This document shows, in pieces, positions 20,787-34,173 of a stretch of DNA of 34,173 nucleotides. The stretch lies in the NCBI GenBank assembly GCA_017416345.1, contig JAFQCR010000030.1:1-34173 (forward strand), written 5' to 3'. The notes under the pieces were generated by a model that saw only the letters and a list, made by a program, of their open reading frames with translations, ran no database searches and was not told the origin of the DNA. Origin of the DNA: Clostridia bacterium. GTDB taxonomy: Bacteria; Bacillota; Clostridia; Oscillospirales; Acutalibacteraceae. Positions within the stretch are counted from its first letter, which is position 1. Every line of letters starts with the position of its first letter. The translations under genes were made by a program, and so were the position numbers.

Positions 20787-22415
20787 ATGCCCATTACCGA
20801 TATTCTGCAGAAGAATGCAGAAATCTACGGCTGTGAGACCGCTTTGGTCGAGGTAAACCCCGGTGCCGATAAAAAGATGACCTGGCGTGAGTTTGCTTTG
20901 ACACAGCCCGTAGGCTCCAACTACCGCAGAGAGATTACCTGGGAGGAATTTGACGATACCGCCAACCGTTTTGCCAATCTTTTGATCGCAAACGGTGTTA
21001 AGAAGGGAACTAAGGTCGCAATTCTTCTGATGAACTGTATTGAATGGTTGCCGATCTATTTCGGAATCCTTCGTGCAGGCGCTATTGCCGTTCCGTTGAA
21101 CTTCCGCTATGCGGCGCAGGAAATTAAATATTGCCTCTCTAAAGCCGATGCCGAATATCTTGCGTTCGGACCTGAGTTTATCGGCCGTGTTGAGGAGATC
21201 GTTGATAACACACAAGGTGTTAAAATGTGGCTTTATGTTGGTGATGGATGCCCCGTTTTTGCCGAAAGCTACGACAAGATAATCAACAATTTCAGCAGTT
21301 TGAATCCCAATATCCCCATTACCGATGAGGATGACGGTGCTATCTATTTTTCGAGCGGCACCACGGGCTTCCCGAAGGCTATTTTACACGCTCACGAAAG
21401 CCTGATGCACTCCTGCCGTGTTGAGCAGAATCATCACAGTCAGACTCACGACGATGTTTTCCTTTGTATTCCGCCGCTTTATCACACGGGTGCAAAGATG
21501 CATTGGTTCGGAAGCCTTTTGGTAGGCGGTAAAGCCGTTCTTTTGAAGGGTACAACGCCCGAGCTTATCATCCGCACCGCCTCCGAGGAAAAATGTTCCA
21601 TCGTATGGCTGCTCGTTCCTTGGGCGCAGGATGTACTTGATGCTATTGAGCGAGGCGAGATCGATCTTTCCGAATATGATCTCGATCAATGGAGATTGAT
21701 GCACATCGGCGCACAGCCCGTTCCGCCTTCGCTTATAAAGCGTTGGAAAGAGGTTTTCCCCAAGCACGAATATGACACCAACTACGGTTTGTCCGAGTCT
21801 ATAGGCCCCGGATGTGTCCACTTGGGTGTTGAAAATATCGACCACGTCGGAGCTATCGGTAAAGCAGGCTTCGGCTGGCAGACAAGGATCGTTGACGAAA
21901 AGCGCAACGAGGTCAAAAAGGGTGACGTCGGTGAGCTTGCCGTCAAGGGCCCCGGTGTTATGAAGTGCTATTACAAGGATAAAAAAGCCACCGACGAGGT
22001 TCTTTATGACGGATGGCTGTTTACCGGAGATATGGCAAGGGAAGACGAGGAAGGCTTTATCTGGCTCGTTGACCGCAAGAAGGACGTTATCATCACGGGC
22101 GGTGAAAACCTTTATCCTGTGCAGATAGAGAACTTTTTGAGACAGAATCTGCCGCAGATCAAGGACGTTGCCGTTATCGGTCTTGCCGATCAGCGACTTG
22201 GTGAGATCGCCGCCGCAGTTATCGAGGTCAAGGACGGCTTTACGCTGACCGAGGATGAGGTCGTTGCTGCTTCCCAAAAACTGCCGAGATACCAGCGACC
22301 CAGAAAGATAATTTTTGCCGATATTCCGCGTAACCCCACCGGCAAAATTGAAAAGCCTACTTTGAGAAAACGCTACGGCTCAAGCAACCTTGTTGCTGAA
22401 GCCACTACCAATTAA
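20787..22415 (+). CDS. Adenylate-forming acyl/aryl-CoA ligase
   Basis: The 542-residue enzyme belongs to the ANL superfamily. The phosphate-binding loop is SSGTTGFPK (189-197). Later motifs are NYGLSES, DGWLFTGD, the hinge DRKKDVIITGGENLYP and PTGKIEK with catalytic K520. It makes an acyl-CoA from a carboxylic acid, ATP and CoA through an acyl-adenylate. Fatty acids are the default family substrate, but co-location with iorAB and a paaK-type ligase points to an aromatic or branched acid. GAAGG lies upstream of the ATG. It is the first gene of a six-gene unit and ends 18 bases before iorA. Confidence 0.9.
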   Translation: MPITDILQKNAEIYGCETALVEVNPGADKKMTWREFALTQPVGSNYRREITWEEFDDTANRFANLLIANGVKKGTKVAILLMNCIEWLPIYFGILRAGAIAVPLNFRYAAQEIKYCLSKADAEYLAFGPEFIGRVEEIVDNTQGVKMWLYVGDGCPVFAESYDKIINNFSSLNPNIPITDEDDGAIYFSSGTTGFPKAILHAHESLMHSCRVEQNHHSQTHDDVFLCIPPLYHTGAKMHWFGSLLVGGKAVLLKGTTPELIIRTASEEKCSIVWLLVPWAQDVLDAIERGEIDLSEYDLDQWRLMHIGAQPVPPSLIKRWKEVFPKHEYDTNYGLSESIGPGCVHLGVENIDHVGAIGKAGFGWQTRIVDEKRNEVKKGDVGELAVKGPGVMKCYYKDKKATDEVLYDGWLFTGDMAREDEEGFIWLVDRKKDVIITGGENLYPVQIENFLRQNLPQIKDVAVIGLADQRLGEIAAAVIEVKDGFTLTEDEVVAASQKLPRYQRPRKIIFADIPRNPTGKIEKPTLRKRYGSSNLVAEATTN

Positions 22416-22433
22416 ACGGAAAGGATCATTTAT

Positions 22434-24167
22434 ATGAAGAAGTTACTTCTCGGTAATGCCGCAGTTGCACGCGGTGCTTACGAAGCAGGCTGTAAGCTCG
22501 TTTCGTCTTACCCCGGCACTCCAAGTACCGAAATTACCGAATCGGTCACAGAATACGACAATATTTACGTTGAATGGGCACCTAACGAAAAGGTTGCCGC
22601 CGAGGTTGCTATCGGTGCATCGATAGCAGGCGGAAGAGCAATGTCCTGCATGAAGCACGTCGGTCTTAACGTTATGGCCGACCCTGTGTTTACCGTCAGC
22701 TACATAGGTGCTAACGGCGGTCTTGTTTTCTGCGTTGCAGATGACCCCGGTATGCATTCCTCGCAGAATGAGCAGGATTCCCGTCATTATGCCGAGGCCG
22801 CCAAGATCCCCATGCTTGAGCCTTCGGATTCCTCCGAGTGTAAGGAGTTCACCAAAGCCGCTTTTGCTTTGAGTGAGGAGTATGATACTCCCGTGTTCAT
22901 CCGTCTTTCGACCCGTGTTTCCCATTCACAGAGCCTTGTCGAGCTTTGTGACCCAGAGGAAGCACCCTTGAAGGATTATGAGAAGAACATCCCCAAGCAC
23001 GTTATGATGCCCGCAATGGCCAAAGGCAGACACGTTATTGTTGAACAGCGCACCGAAAAGCTTAAGGCTTTGGCCGAAAACTGTGCTTTTAATACCGTTG
23101 AAAAGAACGGCTCCAAGATCGGTGTCATTGCCGCAGGTACGACCTATGTTTATGCTAAAGAGGCCTTGGGCGATAAGGTCGACTATCTCAAGCTCGGTAT
23201 GGTATTCCCGTTGTCCGAGAAGCTTATCAAGGATTTTGCCGCCGATTACGACGAGCTGTGGGTCATTGAAGAGCTTGATCCCGTTATCGAGACCTTTGTA
23301 AAGTCTATCGGCATTGCCTGTAAGGGTAAGGAAAACTTTACACTTCTCGGCGAGTATTCGCAGAATATGATCAAAAAGGCGGTTCTCGGAATTGAGACCG
23401 AGGCTATTGCCGACCCCCAGATCCCTAACCGTCCTCCCGTGCTTTGCGTCGGATGTCCTCACAGAGGTACCTTCTATGTGCTCAAAAAGCTCGGTGTGAC
23501 CGTTTCGGGTGACATCGGTTGCTACACCTTGGGTGCGGTCGCTCCGCTTCAGAGCGTTGATACCACCATCTGTATGGGTGCTTCGGTCAGTGCCGCTCAC
23601 GGTATGGCCAAGGTAAGGGGAGAGGAGTTCAACAAAAAGCTGGTTTCGGTAATCGGAGACTCCACCTTTATCCATTCGGGTATTACCGGACTTATTGATA
23701 TTGTTTATAACAAGGGCGCAAATACCGTTATTATCCTTGATAATTCCATCACGGGTATGACGGGACATCAGGAAAACCCCACCACCGGTAAGACCATCCG
23801 TGGTGAAGCCACCAAGCAGGTCGATCTTGAGCTTTTGTGTAAGGCCGTCGGTGTTGAGCGTGTCAGAATCGAAGACCCGTTTGACCTTAAAGGCTTTGAG
23901 GCCGCTGTTAAGGAAGAGCTTGCCGCAGATGAACCCTCGGTCATCATCGCACAGCGTCCCTGCGCTCTGCTTAAGTCGGTCAAATACACCGGTCATTGTG
24001 CAGTTGATGCCGATAAGTGCAGATCCTGCAAGATGTGTATGAAGCTTGGTTGCCCTGCAATTTCGTTTAAGAACGGCAAGGCGGTTATTGATAAGTCTCA
24101 GTGTAACGGTTGCGGACTTTGTGTAAATGTTTGTCCGTTCGGTGCAATAGTTAAGGAGGAAAAGTGA
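22434..24167 (+). CDS. iorA: Indolepyruvate ferredoxin oxidoreductase, alpha subunit
   Basis: The 577-residue protein has an N-terminal pyrimidine-type domain (GNAAVARGAYEAGC, SSYPGTPSTEI), a thiamine-diphosphate-binding domain (GDIGCYTLG, VIGDSTFIHSG), and two C-terminal [4Fe-4S] motifs: C529/C532/C535/C540 and C557/C560/C563/C567. With IorB it oxidatively decarboxylates indolepyruvate, phenylpyruvate or hydroxyphenylpyruvate to the aryl-acetyl-CoA and reduced ferredoxin. Length and domain order match the family. iorB follows with a one-base overlap. Confidence 0.96.
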   Translation: MKKLLLGNAAVARGAYEAGCKLVSSYPGTPSTEITESVTEYDNIYVEWAPNEKVAAEVAIGASIAGGRAMSCMKHVGLNVMADPVFTVSYIGANGGLVFCVADDPGMHSSQNEQDSRHYAEAAKIPMLEPSDSSECKEFTKAAFALSEEYDTPVFIRLSTRVSHSQSLVELCDPEEAPLKDYEKNIPKHVMMPAMAKGRHVIVEQRTEKLKALAENCAFNTVEKNGSKIGVIAAGTTYVYAKEALGDKVDYLKLGMVFPLSEKLIKDFAADYDELWVIEELDPVIETFVKSIGIACKGKENFTLLGEYSQNMIKKAVLGIETEAIADPQIPNRPPVLCVGCPHRGTFYVLKKLGVTVSGDIGCYTLGAVAPLQSVDTTICMGASVSAAHGMAKVRGEEFNKKLVSVIGDSTFIHSGITGLIDIVYNKGANTVIILDNSITGMTGHQENPTTGKTIRGEATKQVDLELLCKAVGVERVRIEDPFDLKGFEAAVKEELAADEPSVIIAQRPCALLKSVKYTGHCAVDADKCRSCKMCMKLGCPAISFKNGKAVIDKSQCNGCGLCVNVCPFGAIVKEEK

Positions 24168-24739
24168 TGGCTGACAGTAAGAATATTATGATAGTCGGTG
24201 TCGGCGGTCAGGGAACTCTGCTTGCCAGCCGAATTTTGGGTAACGTTATCATTGATCAGGGCTTTGATGTCAAGGTTTCTGAGGTTCACGGTATGAGTCA
24301 GCGCGGCGGTAGCGTTGTTACCTATGTAAAATACGGCGAAAAGGTTGCTTCTCCTATCATTGATAAGGCCGAAGCCGACATTATTCTCGCTTTTGAACGT
24401 TTGGAGGCACTTCGTGCTCTGCCTTTCCTCAAAAAAGGCGGTAAGATGATCGTAAACGACCGTGCTATGAACCCCATGCCGGTCATTACGGGTGCTGCCG
24501 AATATCCCGAGGGTATTATTGAGACCCTCAAGCAAAACGCCGATGTAGTAAGCTTGGATGCACTTGAGCTTGCCGAAAAAGCAGGCAGCATCAAGGCCGT
24601 AAACGTTGTTTTGATCGGTGTTTTGGCCAAATCGACCGACATCCCGTATGATGCCTGGGTCGAAACAATTAAAAAGACTGTTCCCGAGAAATTCCTCGAG
24701 ATCAACCTTAAAGCATTTGAAATTGGATATAACCTTTAA
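24167..24739 (+). CDS. iorB: Indolepyruvate ferredoxin oxidoreductase, beta subunit
   Basis: The protein of about 190 residues is the gamma-type domain of 2-oxoacid:ferredoxin oxidoreductases. It begins with IVGVGGQGTLLASRILG and contains VHGMSQRGGSVVTYV, both typical of IorB. It partners IorA. I start at ATG 24167, six bases after AAGGAGGA; GTG 24164 is too close to that site. The A of the ATG is the last base of the iorA stop. Confidence 0.95.
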   Translation: MADSKNIMIVGVGGQGTLLASRILGNVIIDQGFDVKVSEVHGMSQRGGSVVTYVKYGEKVASPIIDKAEADIILAFERLEALRALPFLKKGGKMIVNDRAMNPMPVITGAAEYPEGIIETLKQNADVVSLDALELAEKAGSIKAVNVVLIGVLAKSTDIPYDAWVETIKKTVPEKFLEINLKAFEIGYNL

Positions 24740-24761
24740 TTGAAAAGAGGAATCAGTCATT

Positions 24762-26069
24762 ATGAGCAAGTATTATCAGCCCGAAATTGAAACAATGCCT
24801 TATGAGGAAATGAAAAAACTGCAGGACGAGCGCCTTGTTGCACAAGTCAAGCATGTTTGGGATAACGTTCCTTATTATCGCAAGAAAATGGAAGAAAAAG
24901 GTGTTACACCCGATGATATCAAGGGTGTTGATGACCTTCACAAGCTTCCCTTTGTCACTAAGGACGACCTTCGTGAGTGCTACCCTTACGGCCTTTTGGC
25001 CAAGCCCTTGGGCGATTGTGTAAGGATCCAGTCAACCTCGGGCACTACCGGTAAGCGTGTTGTTGCTTTCTATACTCAAAAGGATATTGAGCTTTGGGAG
25101 GATTGCTGTGCACGTGCCATTACGGCAGTTGGCGGAACAAATGAGGATGTCTGCCAGGTCAGCTACGGCTACGGACTTTTCACAGGAGGCCCCGGTCTTA
25201 ACGGCGGTTCTCACAAGGTTGGATGCCTTACTTTGCCGATGTCTTCGGGTAATACCGACCGTCAGCTTCAGTTTATGACTGACCTTGGAGCAACAATTAT
25301 TTGCTGTACTCCGTCTTACGCCGCTTATCTTGCCGAGTCTATTCACGAGCAAGGACTTCGTGATAAGATAAAGCTCAAGGCAGGTATTTTCGGTGCCGAG
25401 GCCTGGAGTGAAGAAATGCGTAAGGATATTGAGAATAAGCTCGGTATTAAGGCTTATGATATCTACGGTTTAACCGAAATTTCGGGTCCCGGTGTCAGCT
25501 TTGAATGTGAGGAGCAGACCGGTATGCACGTAAACGAGGATCACTTTATCCCCGAGATCATCGATCCCGAAACGGGGGAGGTTCTGCCCTTGGGCGAGAA
25601 GGGTGAGCTTGTATTCACCTCGATTTCAAAAGAGGCCTTCCCGTTGCTTCGTTACAGAACCAAGGATATTTGTGTTCTCTCACGTAAAAAGTGCTCCTGC
25701 GGCCGTACTCTAATAAAGATGGCTAAGCCTATGGGCAGAAGTGACGATATGCTTATCATCCGTGGAGTCAACGTATTCCCGTCGCAGATCGAGGAGGTTC
25801 TCATTGCTGTCGGCGGCGGTAACATCACTCCTAACTATCTCATTAAGATCGACCGTGTCAACAACACCGATACCTTTGATCTGGATGTTGAGATGAGCGA
25901 GGAAATGTTCTCGGATGACGTTAAGTCCATTGCCAAGGTTGAGAACGCTATCAAGGATAAGCTTCGTTCTATTTTGGGTCTCGGTGTAAACGTACACCTT
26001 GTCAACCCCAAGACCATTACACGTAGCGAAGGTAAGGCCAAGCGTGTAATCGATAACCGTAAGATTTAA
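24762..26069 (+). CDS. paaK: Phenylacetate-CoA ligase-type enzyme
   Basis: The 435-residue protein matches the PaaK family: LPFVTKDDLRECYPYGL, the phosphate loop STSGTTGK (91-98), YGLTEISGPGVSFEC and LLRYRTKDICVL, with a C-terminal domain containing RGVNVFPSQIEEVL. Family members interconvert aryl-acetate, ATP and CoA with aryl-acetyl-CoA and AMP. Next to iorAB it could reclaim energy from aryl-acetyl-CoA or activate aryl acids for reductive use; direction is not shown by the sequence. The exact aryl substrate is uncertain. Confidence 0.92.
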   Translation: MSKYYQPEIETMPYEEMKKLQDERLVAQVKHVWDNVPYYRKKMEEKGVTPDDIKGVDDLHKLPFVTKDDLRECYPYGLLAKPLGDCVRIQSTSGTTGKRVVAFYTQKDIELWEDCCARAITAVGGTNEDVCQVSYGYGLFTGGPGLNGGSHKVGCLTLPMSSGNTDRQLQFMTDLGATIICCTPSYAAYLAESIHEQGLRDKIKLKAGIFGAEAWSEEMRKDIENKLGIKAYDIYGLTEISGPGVSFECEEQTGMHVNEDHFIPEIIDPETGEVLPLGEKGELVFTSISKEAFPLLRYRTKDICVLSRKKCSCGRTLIKMAKPMGRSDDMLIIRGVNVFPSQIEEVLIAVGGGNITPNYLIKIDRVNNTDTFDLDVEMSEEMFSDDVKSIAKVENAIKDKLRSILGLGVNVHLVNPKTITRSEGKAKRVIDNRKI

Positions 26070-26085
26070 TAGGGAGGGCTTTAAA

Positions 26086-26520
26086 ATGTTAGTTAAGCAG
26101 GTTTCCGCATTTATTGAAAATAAAGCAGGCAGACTTAATGAGATCGCCGATGTTCTTGCTAATAGCAACATCGATATCAGCGCATTGACCTTGGCCGATA
26201 CAACCGATTACGGCATTGTCAGAATGATCGTATCTGACCCTGAGCAGGCAGTGTTGGCACTACGTGAATCGGGTGTTATTTGCAAAATCACCGAAACTCT
26301 CGCAGTTGCCATTGATGATGCACCGGGTGGATTTGCAAAATCTCTCAAGACCTTAACCGATAACGGTATTGAGATCAAGTATATGTACGCTTGTATCAGC
26401 CACGCAGTCGGTAAAGCATTAATGATCGTCAGCGTAGATGATCCCGAAAAGGCGCAGGAGCTTATTGCTTCAACCGATGCCGGCAAGGTTAATCCTTCCG
26501 AGATTTACCGCCATATCTGA
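26086..26520 (+). CDS. Tandem ACT-domain amino-acid-binding protein
   Basis: The 144-residue protein consists of two ACT domains: VSAFIENKAGRLNEIADVLA opens the first, and VAIDDAPGGFAKSLKTLTD the second. ACT domains bind amino acids and regulate metabolism. Genes of this kind commonly follow iorAB and paaK in anaerobes, so it probably senses an aromatic amino acid, but no enzymatic or DNA-binding domain is attached. AGGGAGG precedes the ATG, 16 bases after paaK. Confidence 0.9.
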   Translation: MLVKQVSAFIENKAGRLNEIADVLANSNIDISALTLADTTDYGIVRMIVSDPEQAVLALRESGVICKITETLAVAIDDAPGGFAKSLKTLTDNGIEIKYMYACISHAVGKALMIVSVDDPEKAQELIASTDAGKVNPSEIYRHI

Positions 26521-28181: not shown

Positions 28182-28221
28182 AAGATTATATTATTTATCA
28201 TTAAAATTATATTTTAAATAT

Positions 28222-28310
28222 AAAAGATTCTTCGGCTGTAAACAGCCTCAGAATGACAAGGTTGCTGTTGCTTTTTAAAACTGTCATTCTGAGCGAAAAG
28301 CGAAGAATCT
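28222..28310. repeat. 89-bp palindromic repeat, copy 1
   Basis: The outer arms AGATTCTTCG and CGAAGAATCT and the inner arms CAGAATGACA and TGTCATTCTG are inverted, enclosing a short AT-rich centre. Copy 2 at 32084-32172 is identical at 87 of 89 positions and in the same orientation. The TGTCATTCTGAGCGAA core is a widespread MITE/REP-like motif in bacterial genomes, to my knowledge. It sits at a convergent junction and can act as a bidirectional terminator, with A/T runs on both sides. The rest of 28182-28322 holds no gene. Confidence 0.9.
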
Positions 28311-28322
28311 CTTTTTATATAC

Positions 28323-30344
28323 TCAATATTTATGTTCAGTTCGGCTGATTATGTGCTTGCGGTAGGGTTCGTCAAGCTCGATGAAATATCCGCTCCATCC
28401 CCAAACACGGACTATTAGATTTTTGTGGTTTTCGGGGTGTGCTTCGGCATCAAGCAGCACATCACGGTTGATGGAATTTAGCTGTAGCTGATGACCGCCA
28501 AGGTCGATAAATGCTTTGACAAGCTGTGCCGTCTTTTTGATACCGTCACTGTTCCTGAAAACGGTGTCGTGAACCTCCATTGTTAACGGACCGCCGTTGA
28601 TGATCTTCTTTAGATCGAATTTAGTAAATGATTGAATTACAGATAACGGGCCGTCAAGCTGTGAGTTTGGGGACGGTGAGAAGCTTGATCCGTATGGTTG
28701 ACCGTTTTTTCGGCCGTCAGCCGTGGCGCCAACACGTCTGGCGCTTAAAATGTATTCCATGGCACTGCCTGTTCCTGCACGGAAAATGCCATCACGGCTG
28801 TTAGGCTTGCCGTTGAGATAAGATGAGAAGACTTCCATAAGATCGCAGGCAATATTATCAACGTAACCGTCATTGTTACCCATTTTGGGGCAGGATAAAA
28901 GCCTGTTACGAAGCTCGCCGTAGCCTTCAAAATCGCTTTTTAACGCTTCAAGTAATTCTTCTTTTGAAACGCTTTTTTCGTCAAAAATCACCTTTTTTAT
29001 GGCCGCAAGAGAATCTGCGGCTGTTGAAATTCCTGCACCGTGAACACCGAAGTTGTTGTAATCCGCTCCCGCATCGGCTATGTCAAGACCTTTTTCGAGG
29101 CAGGAACCAACAAATAATGAAAAATAGGGAGAATATTGGAATTTTTTAGAGTTGCAATACTCGATAATTCCGTTGCATCTGTCAATAATTGCTGACTTTA
29201 CCTTTTCAAAAAAGTCCTCATAGGTATCGCTTGTTAAAAGTCCGTTGTTGACCGCGGTTTCTACTGCGGCAGGGAAGTTAAAAGACGCAATGTTTACGAT
29301 ATCGTAGGCTTTTCCGGGGATTATAAACTCCCAACAAGCCGCAACTGTGTAATTTACGGCATCCTCGGGTCTATAACCCAAACCGATAAGACCGGGAACA
29401 ACAATGTCATCGTTGCAGTATTGCGGGAAGCCAAGACCTAATTTGGTCATTTCTGTGGCAAATTCCAGGCGCTCGATCGGTGTCTTTTGGCTGACACGAA
29501 GATTTATCTTCGGGTCGATTATCTTCAATTCCATAGAAGCCTTCATACAAATTTCCGAAAGCTCGTTGAACATATCGTTTCCGTCAAGGTCATAGCCGCC
29601 CAATACCATACTCTGACCGTTATCGCCCTGCTGAACACCCACATAAATGTCGGTATCAAAATTCAAAGATATGAAAAATTCCTCGGTTATTTCAAGCAGC
29701 TCATCGTGTGTCACACCACGTTTGACGTCATTATCAAAAAACGGCTTCATATACTGATCAAATCGGCCCAATGTGACGTGATGATTACGGTTGCAACGCA
29801 TTGTGTAGATCAAAAACTTCATAAAAACGCAGGCCTCATAATAGGTTTCTGCCTTTTTATGAGGGATATGGCAAAGTGCTTTGTAAAGGTCGTCTATACC
29901 TTTGGCTTTAGCATCCTCCCGGCAACGGTCAGCGTATTCGAGCACACCGTCGATCGCTGTTAATACACCGTTATAAAACGGCCGCTTTTCTTCTTCACAA
30001 TTAGTTATCTTTTTAATAACAGTTTCTTTTATGGAATCGAAACCGTTGTTGAGCGCAAAAGCATAGTCGGGTGTTATGTTGTTGGGGCCGCTTGCATTTG
30101 CGGCTTTGCCGTTAGTGTATGTATATTTCGGATGATATATCTGCTTGCGGTTGAACCCGATTCGGTCGCCTCGGAATGCATTGAGCGATTCGCTTTCAAG
30201 CATTATTTTAAGGCTCAAAGAATCCTTTTCACCGTCGGAATACTCCTTTACAATATCGGAAATGTCTGCACAGCTTTCGGTTCGTGTTTTTTTGTATTCT
30301 CCGCTTTTTAAAATTGCCAATAAATTCTTAACTCGCTCGGTCAT
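28323..30344 (-). CDS. Glycyl radical enzyme of uncharacterised subtype
   Basis: The 673-residue enzyme has the PFL/eliminase fold signatures: LGRFDQYMKPFFDND (192-206), catalytic C337 in AACWEF with E339 (the C-x-E of dehydratases/lyases, not the Cys-Cys of pyruvate formate-lyase), GADYNNFGVHGAG, and the radical loop VRVWGWSGYF with the glycyl residue G649. It is shorter than most family members (about 760-850), and W650 replaces the usual aromatic Tyr/Phe after the glycine. The C-x-E motif suggests a C-O, C-N or C-S bond-cleaving lyase or dehydratase; the substrate is unknown. AGGAG precedes the ATG. It follows its activase by 10 bases and is probably controlled by the divergent AraC protein. 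Confidence 0.92.
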   Translation of the reverse strand: MTERVKNLLAILKSGEYKKTRTESCADISDIVKEYSDGEKDSLSLKIMLESESLNAFRGDRIGFNRKQIYHPKYTYTNGKAANASGPNNITPDYAFALNNGFDSIKETVIKKITNCEEEKRPFYNGVLTAIDGVLEYADRCREDAKAKGIDDLYKALCHIPHKKAETYYEACVFMKFLIYTMRCNRNHHVTLGRFDQYMKPFFDNDVKRGVTHDELLEITEEFFISLNFDTDIYVGVQQGDNGQSMVLGGYDLDGNDMFNELSEICMKASMELKIIDPKINLRVSQKTPIERLEFATEMTKLGLGFPQYCNDDIVVPGLIGLGYRPEDAVNYTVAACWEFIIPGKAYDIVNIASFNFPAAVETAVNNGLLTSDTYEDFFEKVKSAIIDRCNGIIEYCNSKKFQYSPYFSLFVGSCLEKGLDIADAGADYNNFGVHGAGISTAADSLAAIKKVIFDEKSVSKEELLEALKSDFEGYGELRNRLLSCPKMGNNDGYVDNIACDLMEVFSSYLNGKPNSRDGIFRAGTGSAMEYILSARRVGATADGRKNGQPYGSSFSPSPNSQLDGPLSVIQSFTKFDLKKIINGGPLTMEVHDTVFRNSDGIKKTAQLVKAFIDLGGHQLQLNSINRDVLLDAEAHPENHKNLIVRVWGWSGYFIELDEPYRKHIISRTEHKY

Positions 30345-30354
30345 GATATCACTC

Positions 30355-31206
30355 CTAAAGTATGTTTACCTTGATGTCGTATCGTTCAAATATCTCGGTA
30401 TGAGGATGCGGCGGTTTTGTTTCGTCAAACGACGGCTTGAATTCTCGCCCAACAGCCGCATATTTGCCGCCTGCGACCTTGTTGTAGGGAAGCAGGTCAA
30501 TTTCACGAATATTAAAACCGTCAAGCAGGAGCGCAATTTCGGAAAGATTTTGCACGGTATCGGTAACTGTGGGGATGAGCGGTGTGCGGATAACAAAATC
30601 CTTACCGCTTTTTACCAATGTTTCAAGGTTCTGCAATATCGATCTATTGCTTACACCCGTGTATTTTATGTGCTGTTTATCATCAACAAGCTTAATATCA
30701 AAAAGCACGTAATCGACATTTTCTAAAACCGCTTTAAAAATCTCATTACTGCAAAACCCGCTTGTCTGAATAGCTCTATTGGTCTTATTGTCAAGAAGTT
30801 TCAGAGTATCTATTAAAAATTCGGGATGGCTCAACGGCTCACCGCCCGAAAAGGTGACACCGCCGCCGCTTTTATTTAATAAGTTTATGTTTTTTGAAAG
30901 CTCGTCAACAAGCGCTTGCGGAATATAAAGCCTACCTGCAGGCCTTAACAAACGGTTAGGGCAGGCAAGGATGCTTTTTTCGGAGTAAACGTATCCCGAA
31001 TCGGTCTTTTCGGCAGATTTTAAGCATTCGCCGCAGTTGGTGCAGCCGTACTGCGTCTTAATGACCTCGTTTTCATAGCTTTGACCCTCGGGGTTGTGAC
31101 ACCATTCACATCGTAAAGGGCATCCTTTCAAGAAAACAGTCGTTCTGATGCCAGGGCCGTCAAAGGTCGAAAACTCCTCGATCGAAAAAACAAGCGCTTC
31201 TGCCAT
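30355..31206 (-). CDS. Glycyl radical enzyme-activating radical SAM protein
   Basis: The 283-residue activase begins with the family signature FSTFDGPGIRTTVFLKGCPL and the radical SAM triad C29-x3-C33-x2-C36. It has the GGEPL motif (VTFSGGEPLSHPE). A ferredoxin-like insert carries C55, C58, C61 and C82 (in CPNR), enough for one extra [4Fe-4S] cluster rather than the two seen in many eliminase activases. It uses S-adenosylmethionine to install the glycyl radical on the downstream enzyme. AGAGGTGATGG precedes the ATG. It is the first gene of the two-gene unit, which is divergent from the AraC gene. Confidence 0.94.
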   Translation of the reverse strand: MAEALVFSIEEFSTFDGPGIRTTVFLKGCPLRCEWCHNPEGQSYENEVIKTQYGCTNCGECLKSAEKTDSGYVYSEKSILACPNRLLRPAGRLYIPQALVDELSKNINLLNKSGGGVTFSGGEPLSHPEFLIDTLKLLDNKTNRAIQTSGFCSNEIFKAVLENVDYVLFDIKLVDDKQHIKYTGVSNRSILQNLETLVKSGKDFVIRTPLIPTVTDTVQNLSEIALLLDGFNIREIDLLPYNKVAGGKYAAVGREFKPSFDETKPPHPHTEIFERYDIKVNIL

Positions 31207-31240
31207 ACCATCACCTCTGATACAATGATAATACGAACAC

Positions 31241-31270
31241 TTGACATTTGCTTGCGAATTATTGTATTAT
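31241..31270 (+). promoter_or_regulatory. Promoter of the AraC gene, within the divergent control region
   Basis: TTGACA (31241-31246) with TATTAT (31265-31270) after 18 bases; a TATAAT at 31268-31273 overlaps. The 95-base gap 31207-31301 must also carry the minus-strand activase promoter, whose -10 may be TATTAT near 31227-31232. The AraC protein probably acts here, but no repeated operator was identified. Confidence 0.6.
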
Positions 31271-31301
31271 AATAGCAGAAATTTGGCTTTTGAGGTGTTA
31301 T

Positions 31302-32078
31302 ATGGTATTTCATCAACCCCATAACTCACGTGGAAATTACAACTATAACGGTGTTATCTATAAAAGCACGAATTGGCAACCGCATTTTCACAAAAACTTT
31401 GAGGTCGTTTACTGTATAGAAGGTAGCGTTGAATGCTCGGTCAACGGAAGGTCGGCTGTGCTTTACAAAAACGATTTTGCATTATTTTTGTCAAATGAGA
31501 TACATTCAATGACGCCTATCGGTGAAACAGTCTATTGGGTCGGTGTTTTTTCGGAGGATCATGTCAATTCTTTTGCGAAGGCCGTAAGCGGAAAAACAGG
31601 TAACAGCTTTGTTTTTAAATGCTCCGAAACTACTGAAAGGCTGATATGTGAAAACCTTGTCAATATAAACGGCAGAGCAGATAAATACATTATGAAGGCT
31701 TGCTTTTATGCGCTTTGCTCCGAATATCTGAAATCGGTCACTTTGATCGATAAAACACAAAAAAGCGACCTGCTTATGAGGTCGATCACCGAATATATTT
31801 CCGCTAATTTCAAAGAAGATATCAGCCTTAAAAGTATGGCTGACCGAATCGGTTATAATTATCACTATCTTTCTAAAGCGTTCAAGAGAATTTTTGAAAT
31901 GTCTTTCCCGACATTCTTGAACGCTTACCGTGCCGACCACGCTATCGGTCTTTTGACCGAGACTGATATGGATGTAGCCGAGATAGCCTTTGAAAGCGGC
32001 TTTCAAAGCGTCAGAAGCTTTAATGAGTTCTTTAAAAAATACACCAAAATGACTCCAAATGAGTTCAGAAAGAAATAA
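31302..32078 (+). CDS. AraC-family transcriptional regulator
   Basis: The 258-residue protein has an N-terminal cupin-like sensing domain (WQPHFHKNFEVVYCIEGSVE and FALFLSNEIHSM) and a C-terminal double helix-turn-helix (SLKSMADRIGYNYHYLSKAF, then VAEIAFESGFQSVRSFNEFF and the typical MTPNEFRK). The cupin His residues are usual for small-molecule sensing in this family. Divergent orientation from the activase-glycyl radical enzyme pair suggests it activates that pair in response to the substrate. The start is ATG 31302, five bases after GAGGTG; an in-frame TTG at 31248 lies upstream of the promoter -10. Confidence 0.93.
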   Translation: MVFHQPHNSRGNYNYNGVIYKSTNWQPHFHKNFEVVYCIEGSVECSVNGRSAVLYKNDFALFLSNEIHSMTPIGETVYWVGVFSEDHVNSFAKAVSGKTGNSFVFKCSETTERLICENLVNINGRADKYIMKACFYALCSEYLKSVTLIDKTQKSDLLMRSITEYISANFKEDISLKSMADRIGYNYHYLSKAFKRIFEMSFPTFLNAYRADHAIGLLTETDMDVAEIAFESGFQSVRSFNEFFKKYTKMTPNEFRKK

Positions 32079-32083
32079 ACAAA

Positions 32084-32172
32084 AAAAGATTCTTCGGCTG
32101 TGAACAGCCTCAGAATGACAATGTTGCTGTTGCTTTTTAAAACTGTCATTCTGAGCGAAAAGCGAAGAATCT
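32084..32172. repeat. 89-bp palindromic repeat, copy 2
   Basis: It differs from 28222-28310 at only two positions, neither in the outer arms. It begins five bases after the araC stop and sits at the convergent junction with the deacetylase/peptide unit, where it can terminate both. Copies 1 and 2 bracket the glycyl radical enzyme module exactly at the 3' ends of its outermost genes. Confidence 0.9.
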
Positions 32173-32201
32173 TTTTTTATTTTTGTTAATTTAATTTAAA
32201 G

Positions 32202-32336
32202 TCAATCCCAATAATCTCCGCCGAAGCCGGGGATACTTAACTCAAATCCTGCGGCGATAGGAGTTGATTGTGTTACGGATATTACCTTAACCTCGGGTTT
32301 TTGATATTCCTTAATATTACTTATCTCTGTACTCAT
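32202..32336 (-). CDS. 44-residue peptide, unknown function
   Basis: A short gene on the minus strand encodes 44 residues. It starts at ATG 32336, inside the last codons of the deacetylase gene (20-base overlap), with GGAGAGG six bases upstream, a strong site. The N-terminal half is charged and contains EYQKPEVKVISV; the C-terminal half is Gly- and aromatic-rich and acidic (AAGFELSIPGFGGDYWD). There is no cysteine and no membrane helix. The leader-then-core look resembles ribosomally made modified-peptide precursors, but no modifying enzyme is in view. It could also be a small secreted or regulatory peptide. Translation is probably coupled to the deacetylase; the 89-bp repeat would terminate the transcript. 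Confidence 0.65.
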   Translation of the reverse strand: MSTEISNIKEYQKPEVKVISVTQSTPIAAGFELSIPGFGGDYWD

Positions 32337-34173
32337 AAACTGCCTCTCCGTTTTCAACGTAAACTCTCTTGATGTGGCCATCGGTGGGTATATCCTCGTA
32401 ATCGATACCCTGAAGCTCGAACAACTGCGTCAGAGTGCAGAAGCGGTATCCCTTCTCATAAAGAATAGGCAAGACCTGCTCGAGAGCATCGGGAGTGACA
32501 CCGCTGGCTTTGGTCGAATGATTCAAAATAACCGAGCCGTGGGGTATTTCGTCAGATGTCAGGTTGTTGACAATGTCTTCAACCGTAGAAGAGCCGTTTG
32601 AAAAATCGGCGTGAGAATAGTTGCCCGATGTTGCCGGCATACCGATCTGCGTCAGATATTCCCACAGATATTCATTAGATGAATGTCCCGAACCTCTGAA
32701 CCACTTGCAGGTATAATCAAGGTTTTCCTTATACCAATCATTGACCTTCTTGACCTCATCAATAGTTGCTTGTCTTTCGGTTATTACGGTTTTCAAGTTC
32801 TGGTGAGAGTAAGAGTGATTGGCAAGCTCATGACCCTTTGACAAAGCATATTTAGGGATAGTAGTTCCGTATTTTGTAAGTCCCGTACCCGTAAAGTAGA
32901 AGGTCGCGGCACCGTTATAATTGCCGAACAGATCGATCAATCTTGTAACCGTATTGTCACCAACCTCGTCTACGACAGGGCCGTCATCAAAGGTGAAGGC
33001 GACAAGCTTGTAATCCTCGGGGTGGAGGAACCATTGGTCCTCGTTATAATATTTCAAAACAACATCACTTGTCCTATAAATAGCTCTGGGCAGATTAGCG
33101 TTAATATAGCGGTCTTCACTATAGCTCTTTGAAATATCGATCTGCGTGGGATCGGTAACCTTAAGCTTATACTCAAACAGCTCAGAAACCGTGACAAAGC
33201 GGTATCCGTCAGCGTAAAGAGTTGCACAAATGTCATCAAGTATCTCGGCTGTCTGTGCGCTTGTTCCGTGCATTATAACAACCTTGCCGTCGTAAGCGGT
33301 GCTGACCACCTTTTCGTAGATGGATTCGGGTGTTGTGTCAGCAGCGTAATCCGAGATATAAACGGCGTTTCCGTCAATATCAACGTTTCCTCGTACCAAA
33401 GGCATTTGCGCCTGAATTGCAGCCTCTAAAACAGGGTCAGAGATAGCTCCTTCAGCAGCACGCAAATATTTAATATCGTAATTCATTTCCTGCTTAATGA
33501 GATCATTAAGAGGTTTGATCTCTTCATCGATATAATTCTGTGCGGTGTAGTCGGGATTTGCTTCAAGAAATGCAGAACCGATCTTTTTATGGTTCATGGT
33601 GTGGCTTGCGATCTCAAAGCCGTGCTCAACAGCATACTGGAGCTGTCCGACACCGTATTTAGTTACCTTTTTTCCGATGATAAACATTGTGCCTGCACCG
33701 GCGTATTTGTTGAGTGTGTTGATGATCTTGTTTTGATTATTGCCAAGATCCGAGCCGTCGACCGAGGTGGGACCGTCGTCAAAGGTGAAAGCGATCAGCT
33801 TATAATCCTGCGGATGGCTTTTCCATTCATCGCTGATCTTTACAAGTCCTGCACCGTTGGAGGGCGCATCAAAGTCAATGTTCATTACCTTATAGGTAGC
33901 GGCAACCTGGTTAAAGGAGGTTTCACCCAAGGCATAGTAAGTATAAGTATCGCCGGTCTTTACATATAAAACAGCACTAAAGCGCCTTGTGTAAGCCGTA
34001 TTACCGTCCTCGGTAGAAAGACCGGTGAGTATCATCTGATATGCGGTCTGATTGGTGCCCTGCTCATAAACGATGTCGGTAACATCCTTTTTATAGCAAA
34101 CACCCTGCTTAACGATAGTGTTAAGTCCGTTTTCAAGCTTATACCAATCACTGTCGGCTCTGACAGCAGAGGA
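32317..34173 (-). CDS. Tandem polysaccharide deacetylase, N terminus beyond window
   Basis: The frame is open to the right edge, so the start is outside the window; at least 618 residues are present. After an N-terminal region with a WYKLENG-type repeat, two NodB domains follow. The first has AFTFDDGP and SHTMNH, the second AFTFDDGP and NHSYSH, so both keep the Asp and two His metal ligands of carbohydrate esterase family 4. The protein is probably extracellular and acts on glycans. The first ATG visible in frame is at 34035, but continuous sequence of the same character precedes it. It overlaps the 44-residue peptide gene at its 3' end. Confidence 0.9.
   Translation of the reverse strand, partial: SSAVRADSDWYKLENGLNTIVKQGVCYKKDVTDIVYEQGTNQTAYQMILTGLSTEDGNTAYTRRFSAVLYVKTGDTYTYYALGETSFNQVAATYKVMNIDFDAPSNGAGLVKISDEWKSHPQDYKLIAFTFDDGPTSVDGSDLGNNQNKIINTLNKYAGAGTMFIIGKKVTKYGVGQLQYAVEHGFEIASHTMNHKKIGSAFLEANPDYTAQNYIDEEIKPLNDLIKQEMNYDIKYLRAAEGAISDPVLEAAIQAQMPLVRGNVDIDGNAVYISDYAADTTPESIYEKVVSTAYDGKVVIMHGTSAQTAEILDDICATLYADGYRFVTVSELFEYKLKVTDPTQIDISKSYSEDRYINANLPRAIYRTSDVVLKYYNEDQWFLHPEDYKLVAFTFDDGPVVDEVGDNTVTRLIDLFGNYNGAATFYFTGTGLTKYGTTIPKYALSKGHELANHSYSHQNLKTVITERQATIDEVKKVNDWYKENLDYTCKWFRGSGHSSNEYLWEYLTQIGMPATSGNYSHADFSNGSSTVEDIVNNLTSDEIPHGSVILNHSTKASGVTPDALEQVLPILYEKGYRFCTLTQLFELQGIDYEDIPTDGHIKRVYVENGEAVYEYRDK

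Follow-up and report, generated by a model that had tools for sequence, protein, structure and literature searches.

The gene at positions 28323–30344 of the window—the whole 34,173-nucleotide stretch of DNA analyzed here, which is all of one contig of a 38-contig, 2.47-Mb assembly—encodes a product that is, by PF02901 and PF01228, a glycyl radical enzyme (GRE), a type of radical enzyme that is sensitive to oxygen, and together with its relatives this product forms what is apparently an undescribed GRE subfamily, recognizable by the motif pair ACWE and RVWGWS. With a probability of about 0.45, the enzyme would be eliminase (dehydratase)-like, and its likeliest substrate would be a carbohydrate or polyol released as glycans are degraded. 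A recent review states that many abundant gut GREs are without known function (PMC11574389).

The Locus and Its Gene Models

The window encodes the GRE together with its own activase and regulator (Table 1), as an earlier note on this DNA had claimed: the match of the activase to TIGR02494 reaches 248 bits (cut-off 174), and the AraC-type regulator is transcribed divergently from the activase–GRE pair. An activase motif was also found, by a heuristic motif test, in 80 of 97 gene runs of the family. The start of the regulator is most likely the ATG at 31302 and not the TTG at 31248, because a GAGGTG site lies 5′ of this ATG and relatives begin there. The divergent intergenic region, read by eye and not with a promoter scan, contains TTGACA and TATAAT-like elements and GAGGTG ribosome-binding sites. 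Six GRE-like places occur in the source genome, the window's GRE counted.

The same note had called the enzyme unusually short, and this is confirmed. An AGGAG ribosome-binding site stands just 5′ of the ATG of the open reading frame, and the start position is common to several relatives, for example, those beginning MTDRI (L008) and MTERV (L009); the shortness therefore does not come from a mis-called start. Among the 102 aligned family rows the median length is 677 residues (range 572–764 as called), and short size is thus a trait of the family.

Table 1. Features of the GRE locus in the window.
Feature	Position	Strand	Basis or remark
GRE gene, 673 aa, WGW/ACWE subfamily	28323..30344	minus	ORF, translation, Pfam, family alignments, tree
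Radical-SAM GRE activase, 283 aa, CX3CX2C present	30355..31206	minus	10 bp upstream of GRE; ORF list, NCBIfam, Pfam
AraC-type regulator, AraC-binding/cupin-like sensor domain	31302..32078	plus	re-annotated start; Pfam
Divergent promoter region, activase/regulator intergenic	31207..31301		read by eye
Cys337 codon (predicted thiyl radical site), in AACWEF	29334..29336	minus	pairs with glycerol dehydratase C433, HypD C434
Gly649 codon (predicted glycyl radical site), in RVWGWSGYF	28398..28400	minus	pairs with glycerol dehydratase G763
Asn89 codon, strand beta-1 pocket site	30078..30080	minus	alignment: His164 in glycerol dehydratase, Asp in CutC
Asn351 codon	29292..29294	minus	alignment: Asp447 in glycerol dehydratase
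Palindromic repeat copy 1, directly downstream of GRE	28215..28318	minus	repeat search
Palindromic repeat copy 2, directly downstream of regulator	32084..32180	minus	same orientation as copy 1

Superfamily Membership and Distance from Characterized Groups

The window's GRE matches PF02901 with 344 bits (2e-102, cut-off 24.3) and PF01228 with 68 bits (1e-18, cut-off 22.2). The GRE fingerprint published in PMC11528403, RVXG[FWY], is present as RVWGW, a mid-protein Cys is present as C337, and the radical-SAM activase expected of the superfamily is encoded at the same locus.

All 12 of its NCBIfam matches lie below cut-off, the best being that to TIGR01774 (345 versus 678 bits), with HypD at 281 of 1100 bits, HpsG at 265 of 1000, CutC at 257 of 1050, indoleacetate decarboxylase at 218 of 1100, hydroxyphenylacetate decarboxylase at 198 of 1150, and pyruvate formate-lyase (PFL) at 90 of 994; none of the equivalog cut-offs for HypD, CutC, HpsG, HpfG, HPAD, IAD, PflD-type enzymes, or PFL is reached. 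Five further family members likewise stay below every NCBIfam cut-off among the models listed for them (eight each, E up to 1e-40). In BLASTP comparisons with five solved GREs, whose rows lacked N-termini, identity was 30.1% to glycerol dehydratase, 32.3% to HypD, 29.8% to PflD, 28.5% to 8id0, and 28.8% to CutC, and the best solved-structure matches were glycerol dehydratase (1r8w), PflD (8yjo), and diol dehydratase (5i2a). The 27 family rows included in a 40-row maximum-likelihood tree group in a single clade supported at 100/100, whose branch measures 1.01 changes per column; the nearest sister of this clade is unsure because the tree is midpoint-rooted and has several other long branches. 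The PflD/TIGR01774 (PFL2/glycerol dehydratase) subfamily supplies the best NCBIfam match and yet falls outside the family's clade. As far as tested, then, the window's GRE appears to stand outside the characterized groups, and the earlier note, which saw no match to the active-site signatures of several such groups, is borne out on this point by the model scores, the identities, and the branch of its own. Keyword searches of an open-access library showed no description of the family among the entries listed, and a query with the loop motif brought up a single, unrelated paper.

One published group of unusual GRE relatives offers a further comparison. Aminoacyl radical enzymes, as described in PMC11528403, come mostly from human-gut metagenome-assembled genomes (MAGs), are nearest to eliminases, and have the radical Gly replaced by Ala, Ser, or Thr. 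Unlike these proteins, the family studied here keeps the Gly, G649 being present in 102 of 102 rows.

Distribution and Sampling of the Family

Judged from the searches, the window's GRE belongs to a real and widespread GRE subfamily, which has members in Clostridia, Spirochaetota, Verrucomicrobiota, Lentisphaerota, and Bacteroidota and whose cultured hosts include Hungatella hathewayi DSM 13479 and Massiliimalia massiliensis. Its distribution is patchy. A whole-protein search (E up to 1e-100) found relatives in 15 of 200 genomes from the source organism's taxonomic family, the source genome counted, and none at that threshold in two further genomes of the same genus among those listed. With a profile search (E up to 1e-180), relatives turned up in 20 of 391 genomes from the class and 2 of 398 from the phylum (own genome counted), as well as in 3 of 30 from the order to which G568 belongs and 7 of 70 from the family that contains G519 (the central genome counted in each). 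A pattern scan of named genomes yielded at least 568 loci that encode a relative at a tblastn E of up to 1e-3, of which the best 80 (L021–L100) were kept; most of these 80 are from MAGs, many of them ruminant-gut by their titles. No relative was found in a scan of viral contigs, and all 141 matches in plasmid records were below 60% identity, with 27.6–31.6% among the 20 listed.

Of the 102 aligned rows, one is the window's protein, 100 are loci, and one is an additional copy from L030. Duplicates of other rows are among them (L070 and L139 at least), and the fragments L020, L125, and L126 were left out. They include L052, L055, and L090 (AACWE) and L151 (GACWE), which an AACWE filter had missed and which were added back, so that no fetched locus was lost for want of AACWE. 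Alignment A2 holds 61 of 94 rows, namely the 80 pattern-scan loci and 14 in alignment A1. Because L021–L100 were selected by peptide patterns, one of which contains WGW, this motif is partly selected among these loci; it is present in all 13 complete relatives from the whole-protein search, which were not pattern-selected.

Active Site and Conserved Residues

Residues A336, C337, W338, E339, N351, W648, G649, W650, S651, and F654 are each invariant in 102 of 102 rows, and the motifs that contain them are therefore not chance occurrences; R646 is likewise present in all rows, and N89 in 100 (one gap and one His). The placement of Cys337 in ACWEF and of Gly649 in RVWGWSGYF, which the earlier note had proposed, agrees with both translation and alignment. 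Its description of the radical loop as atypical holds in part: since RVXG[FWY] allows Trp after the Gly, W650 is within the GRE norm, and it is the Trp before the Gly that is unusual. On these alignments, the Trp before Gly649 and the ACW of the Cys loop are the distinctive marks of the family.

The C-x-E had also been called atypical, a claim that falls, the motif being kept as in eliminases. By alignment, the counterparts of C337 and E339 are C433 and E435 in glycerol dehydratase and C434 and E436 in HypD, and C337-W338-E339 is found in all 102 rows; Cys-x-Glu is described as conserved among GRE eliminases in PMC7077986 and PMC8473560. An adjacent Cys-Cys pair is absent from every row (A336-C337-W338 in 102 of 102), and pyruvate-formate-lyase chemistry is therefore unlikely. 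The Cys-x-Glu motif is not exclusive to eliminases, however, as arylacetate decarboxylases, including hydroxyphenylacetate decarboxylase, carry it as well, and its Glu plays a different role in HypD. The reaction is therefore not settled by this motif on its own.

The B12-independent glycerol dehydratase (1r8w) shares with the family the GRE domains recognized by sequence, Cys-x-Glu, and the radical Gly loop. It is larger (787 versus 673 residues), and at the sites compared its H164 is replaced by Asn89, its D447 by Asn351, GCVE by ACWE, and RVAGY by RVWGW. Its pocket residues, which we take to be numbered H164, H281, and D447, agree with the alignment in residue type. The positions of H164 and D447 are Asn in the family, and membership among the glycerol/propanediol dehydratases therefore fails; a His near H281 is kept. 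This is H189, present in 98 of 102 rows and located on the strand of H281, although phmmer pairs H281 with H188 while the profile alignment places it in the H189 column. At the beta-1 site, PMC8473560 gives Gln193 for IslA, Asp216 for CutC, and His160 for HypD. HypD shares the Cys-x-Glu of eliminases and the Gly and Cys loops with the window's GRE, at 32% identity over 570 aligned positions and at a model score far below cut-off; its residues D278, S334, Y450, and T645 align with H188, N242, S354, and A528.

These comparisons bear on the nearest conventional explanation, namely that the enzyme is a variant glycerol or 1,2-propanediol dehydratase that acts on a small diol. Both 1r8w and 5i2a are among its top three solved matches, Cys-x-Glu is kept, L169 and L073/L168 (a single contig) have an aldehyde dehydrogenase (ALDH) gene two genes upstream, ahead of the activase and GRE, and the L140 run has an iron-type alcohol dehydrogenase (Fe-ADH). 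However, identity to glycerol dehydratase is only 30%, TIGR01774 is matched at 345 against 678 bits, Asn occupies the H164 position in 100 and the D447 position in all of the 102 rows, and no microcompartment shell family is among the 25 most frequent neighbor families, which together make this explanation quite improbable. Dehydratase-like chemistry may nevertheless be carried out despite the loss of H164 and D447. Residues D241, N242, K279, N281, Q308, R522, G526, and E590 are found in 102 of 102 rows and are mostly unlike those of the known enzymes compared; judged by sequence alignment, on which all inferences about the pocket are based, the polar invariants D241, N242, K279, N281, Q308, N351, R522, and E590 would suit a polyhydroxylated ligand.

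Gene Neighborhoods

The 102 distinct loci were split by regulator into 38 AraC-type loci, in which a relative of the window's regulator (at least 30% identity) is encoded on the other strand and no more than two genes from the GRE, and 64 other loci, some of which may lack the regulator merely through a contig end. This split is not a split of clades: L100 and L133 are AraC-type, but in the tree they fall together with L135, L140, and L147. The AraC-type loci, the window's own class, are not enriched in sugar genes, matches to a sugar-gene BLAST panel being found for 2 of 155 near and 3 of 213 far genes. Outside this class, the GRE and activase often lie within longer gene runs, and the panel matches 42 of 242 near versus 15 of 235 far genes, with an odds ratio of 3.1 (panel genes and twins more than 90% identical excluded) and a p of 2e-4 that is only a guide, because the panel was chosen after the loci had been seen and many loci are related. 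When the panel genes are counted in, the figures are 64 of 261 near and 17 of 237 far (odds ratio 4.2), with a far match in 12 of 54 loci. About half of the other loci (29 of 64) have a near match, while the remaining 35 have none within three genes. The suggestion in the earlier note that homologous loci be searched for transporter or catabolic genes is thus borne out for loci without the AraC-type regulator and not for those with it.

The Pfam families of 109 operon neighbors (of 141 eligible) were compared with those of 109 control genes (of 332) located more than 5 kb away, with the 25 most frequent families taken per set. The neighbors include GH43 (6), GH127 (5), raffinose-synthase/GH36 (4), GH2 (3), LacI (6), Peripla_BP_4 (9, overlapping LacI sensor domains), and sugar MFS (3), each of which occurs at most once among the controls; these also hold sugar-type genes, namely BPD_transp_1 (4), SBP_bac_1 (2), and GH141 (2). 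A similar LacI regulator (at least 43% identity) recurs in GRE runs of Bacillota and Spirochaetota, and the glycoside hydrolase types differ from locus to locus.

Individual loci illustrate this variety. An isomerase, a class II aldolase, and a sugar kinase lie beside the GRE in L083 and L095, the isomerase of L083 being weakly similar to sulfoquinovose isomerase (SftI; 110 bits versus a cut-off of 700) and having a relative in L095. In L080, AraA, an FGGY kinase, and AraD are divergent from the GRE, and the L147 run holds an FGGY kinase, a DeoC/LacD-family aldolase, a zinc ADH, an SMP-30/lactonase-like protein, GH43, and a second GRE. The neighbors also include an Rbs-type ABC transporter in L167, a raffinose-synthase/GH36-like protein in L171, and, by Pfam, a rhamnosidase in L172 and a HAD phosphatase in L170; L169, L170, L173, and L174 have no panel match.

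The occurrence of sugar genes near the GRE in about half of the non-AraC loci favors a radical dehydratase of sugars or polyols. The same neighbors could, however, mirror the glycan-degrading lifestyle of the hosts, in which case the enzyme might be an eliminase of a non-carbohydrate compound that has sugar genes nearby for that reason only. The AraC-type loci, which stand apart from sugar genes, the 35 of 64 other loci without a nearby panel match, and the varying neighbor types are all consistent with such an enzyme, but it is unlikely given that genes farther off in the same loci show less enrichment (15 of 235 versus 42 of 242) and that the LacI regulator recurs in two phyla. A radical carbohydrate enzyme other than a dehydratase—an epimerase, or one cleaving a C–O ether or a C–C bond—would agree with the sugar neighborhood, with the distinctive pocket residues, and with the second, Cys-Cys GRE of the L147 run. 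This too is rather unlikely, since the family lacks a Cys-Cys pair and carries the Cys-x-Glu that PMC7077986 and PMC8473560 report as conserved among, though not exclusive to, GRE eliminases.

Proposed Reaction

For dehydration of a carbohydrate or polyol, the steps would be those of the radical elimination scheme described for GRE eliminases (PMC7077986, PMC8473560). The adjacent radical-SAM activase would place a radical on Gly649, which would take a hydrogen from Cys337; the resulting thiyl radical would then abstract the C–H hydrogen next to a hydroxyl of the substrate, with Glu339 accepting the hydroxyl proton and the neighboring C–OH departing as water. Regain of a hydrogen from Cys337 by the product radical would yield a deoxygenated aldehyde or deoxy-sugar, and the AraC regulator, or LacI in other loci, would switch the enzyme on when the substrate sugar is present. 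The residues that would pass a radical from Gly to Cys are invariant, as is the Cys-x-Glu motif; we infer the radical steps and the dehydration from sequence comparison, and the sugar or polyol substrate would follow from it less firmly than the dehydration chemistry. That the window's enzyme shares this substrate is suggested only by the shared active site, the AraC-type loci adding no independent support.

More specifically, the enzyme might be a B12-free radical sugar dehydratase that deoxygenates a free sugar or sugar alcohol in the glycan breakdown of anaerobes, a proposal that we regard as somewhat doubtful. One form of it would convert a pentitol to a 2-deoxypentose—the glycerol dehydratase reaction on longer polyols—after which the phosphorylated product would undergo a DeoC-type cleavage; L147 is the only GRE run in which a DeoC/LacD-family gene is seen. 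The reaction of the enzyme may, as the earlier note suggested, be an undescribed one. If sugar dehydration proves true, it would add a new substrate class to the GREs and a route for the anaerobic fermentation of glycan sugars.

Other Genes and Repeats in the Window

A row of plus-strand genes at 20787–26520 encodes an acyl-CoA ligase-like protein, indolepyruvate:ferredoxin oxidoreductase (IOR)-like alpha and beta subunits, a PaaK-like ligase, and an ACT-like protein. The PaaK-like ligase scores 513 bits against TIGR02155, below the cut-off of 646, and the IOR, first-ligase, and ACT names were given by eye or from weak matches. Since this cluster ends 1.8 kb from the GRE, and hydroxyphenylacetate decarboxylase also carries Cys-x-Glu, one might suppose that the GRE is an arylacetate decarboxylase tied to these indolepyruvate oxidoreductase and phenylacetate-CoA ligase genes. 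However, the cluster lies on the opposite strand and is separated from the GRE by GDSL and ZIP genes and a repeat; the indoleacetate decarboxylase model reaches 218 bits (cut-off 1100) and that of hydroxyphenylacetate decarboxylase 198 (cut-off 1150); and, across the window plus 80 loci, AMP-ligase relatives form clusters in three sets, the IorA cluster falling below the listed clusters of two loci. This supposition is hardly credible, and a functional tie of the GRE to the IOR/PaaK cluster was rejected on the strand, the model scores, and the neighbor counts. The ZIP, GDSL, and IOR/PaaK genes of the window are all on the strand opposite to the GRE. On the minus strand at 32317–34173, an open frame that runs to the contig end encodes a protein with two polysaccharide-deacetylase stretches (PF01522).

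The two palindromic repeat copies are direct, are 97% identical over 97 bp, and bracket the GRE–activase–regulator cassette. The repeat is strongly folding (z −6.6) and has 25 full or partial matches in the source genome. Flanking repeats occur in 1 of 34 AraC-type relatives tested and were accordingly rejected as a general trait of the family.

Other Proteins near Family Members

Four loci (L149:7062–8915, L150:2976–4859, L172:1308–3203, and L174:2411–4291) encode a protein of 617–631 residues at a distance of one or two genes from the GRE, and the L149 copy, which was the one tested, has no Pfam match. The second GRE of L147 (11892–13898, minus strand; 668 residues) adjoins an activase of its own and carries SACCTF, with a Cys-Cys pair and no CxE, and RMYGFSEYF. 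Another short GRE type, with GGCTE and RVGGYSEYF, is encoded in the window's own genome, on contig C35 (L003:1198–3138; 646 residues, below the NCBIfam cut-offs listed) and in L142 (11996–13975; 659 residues), where it lies two genes from the WGW GRE.
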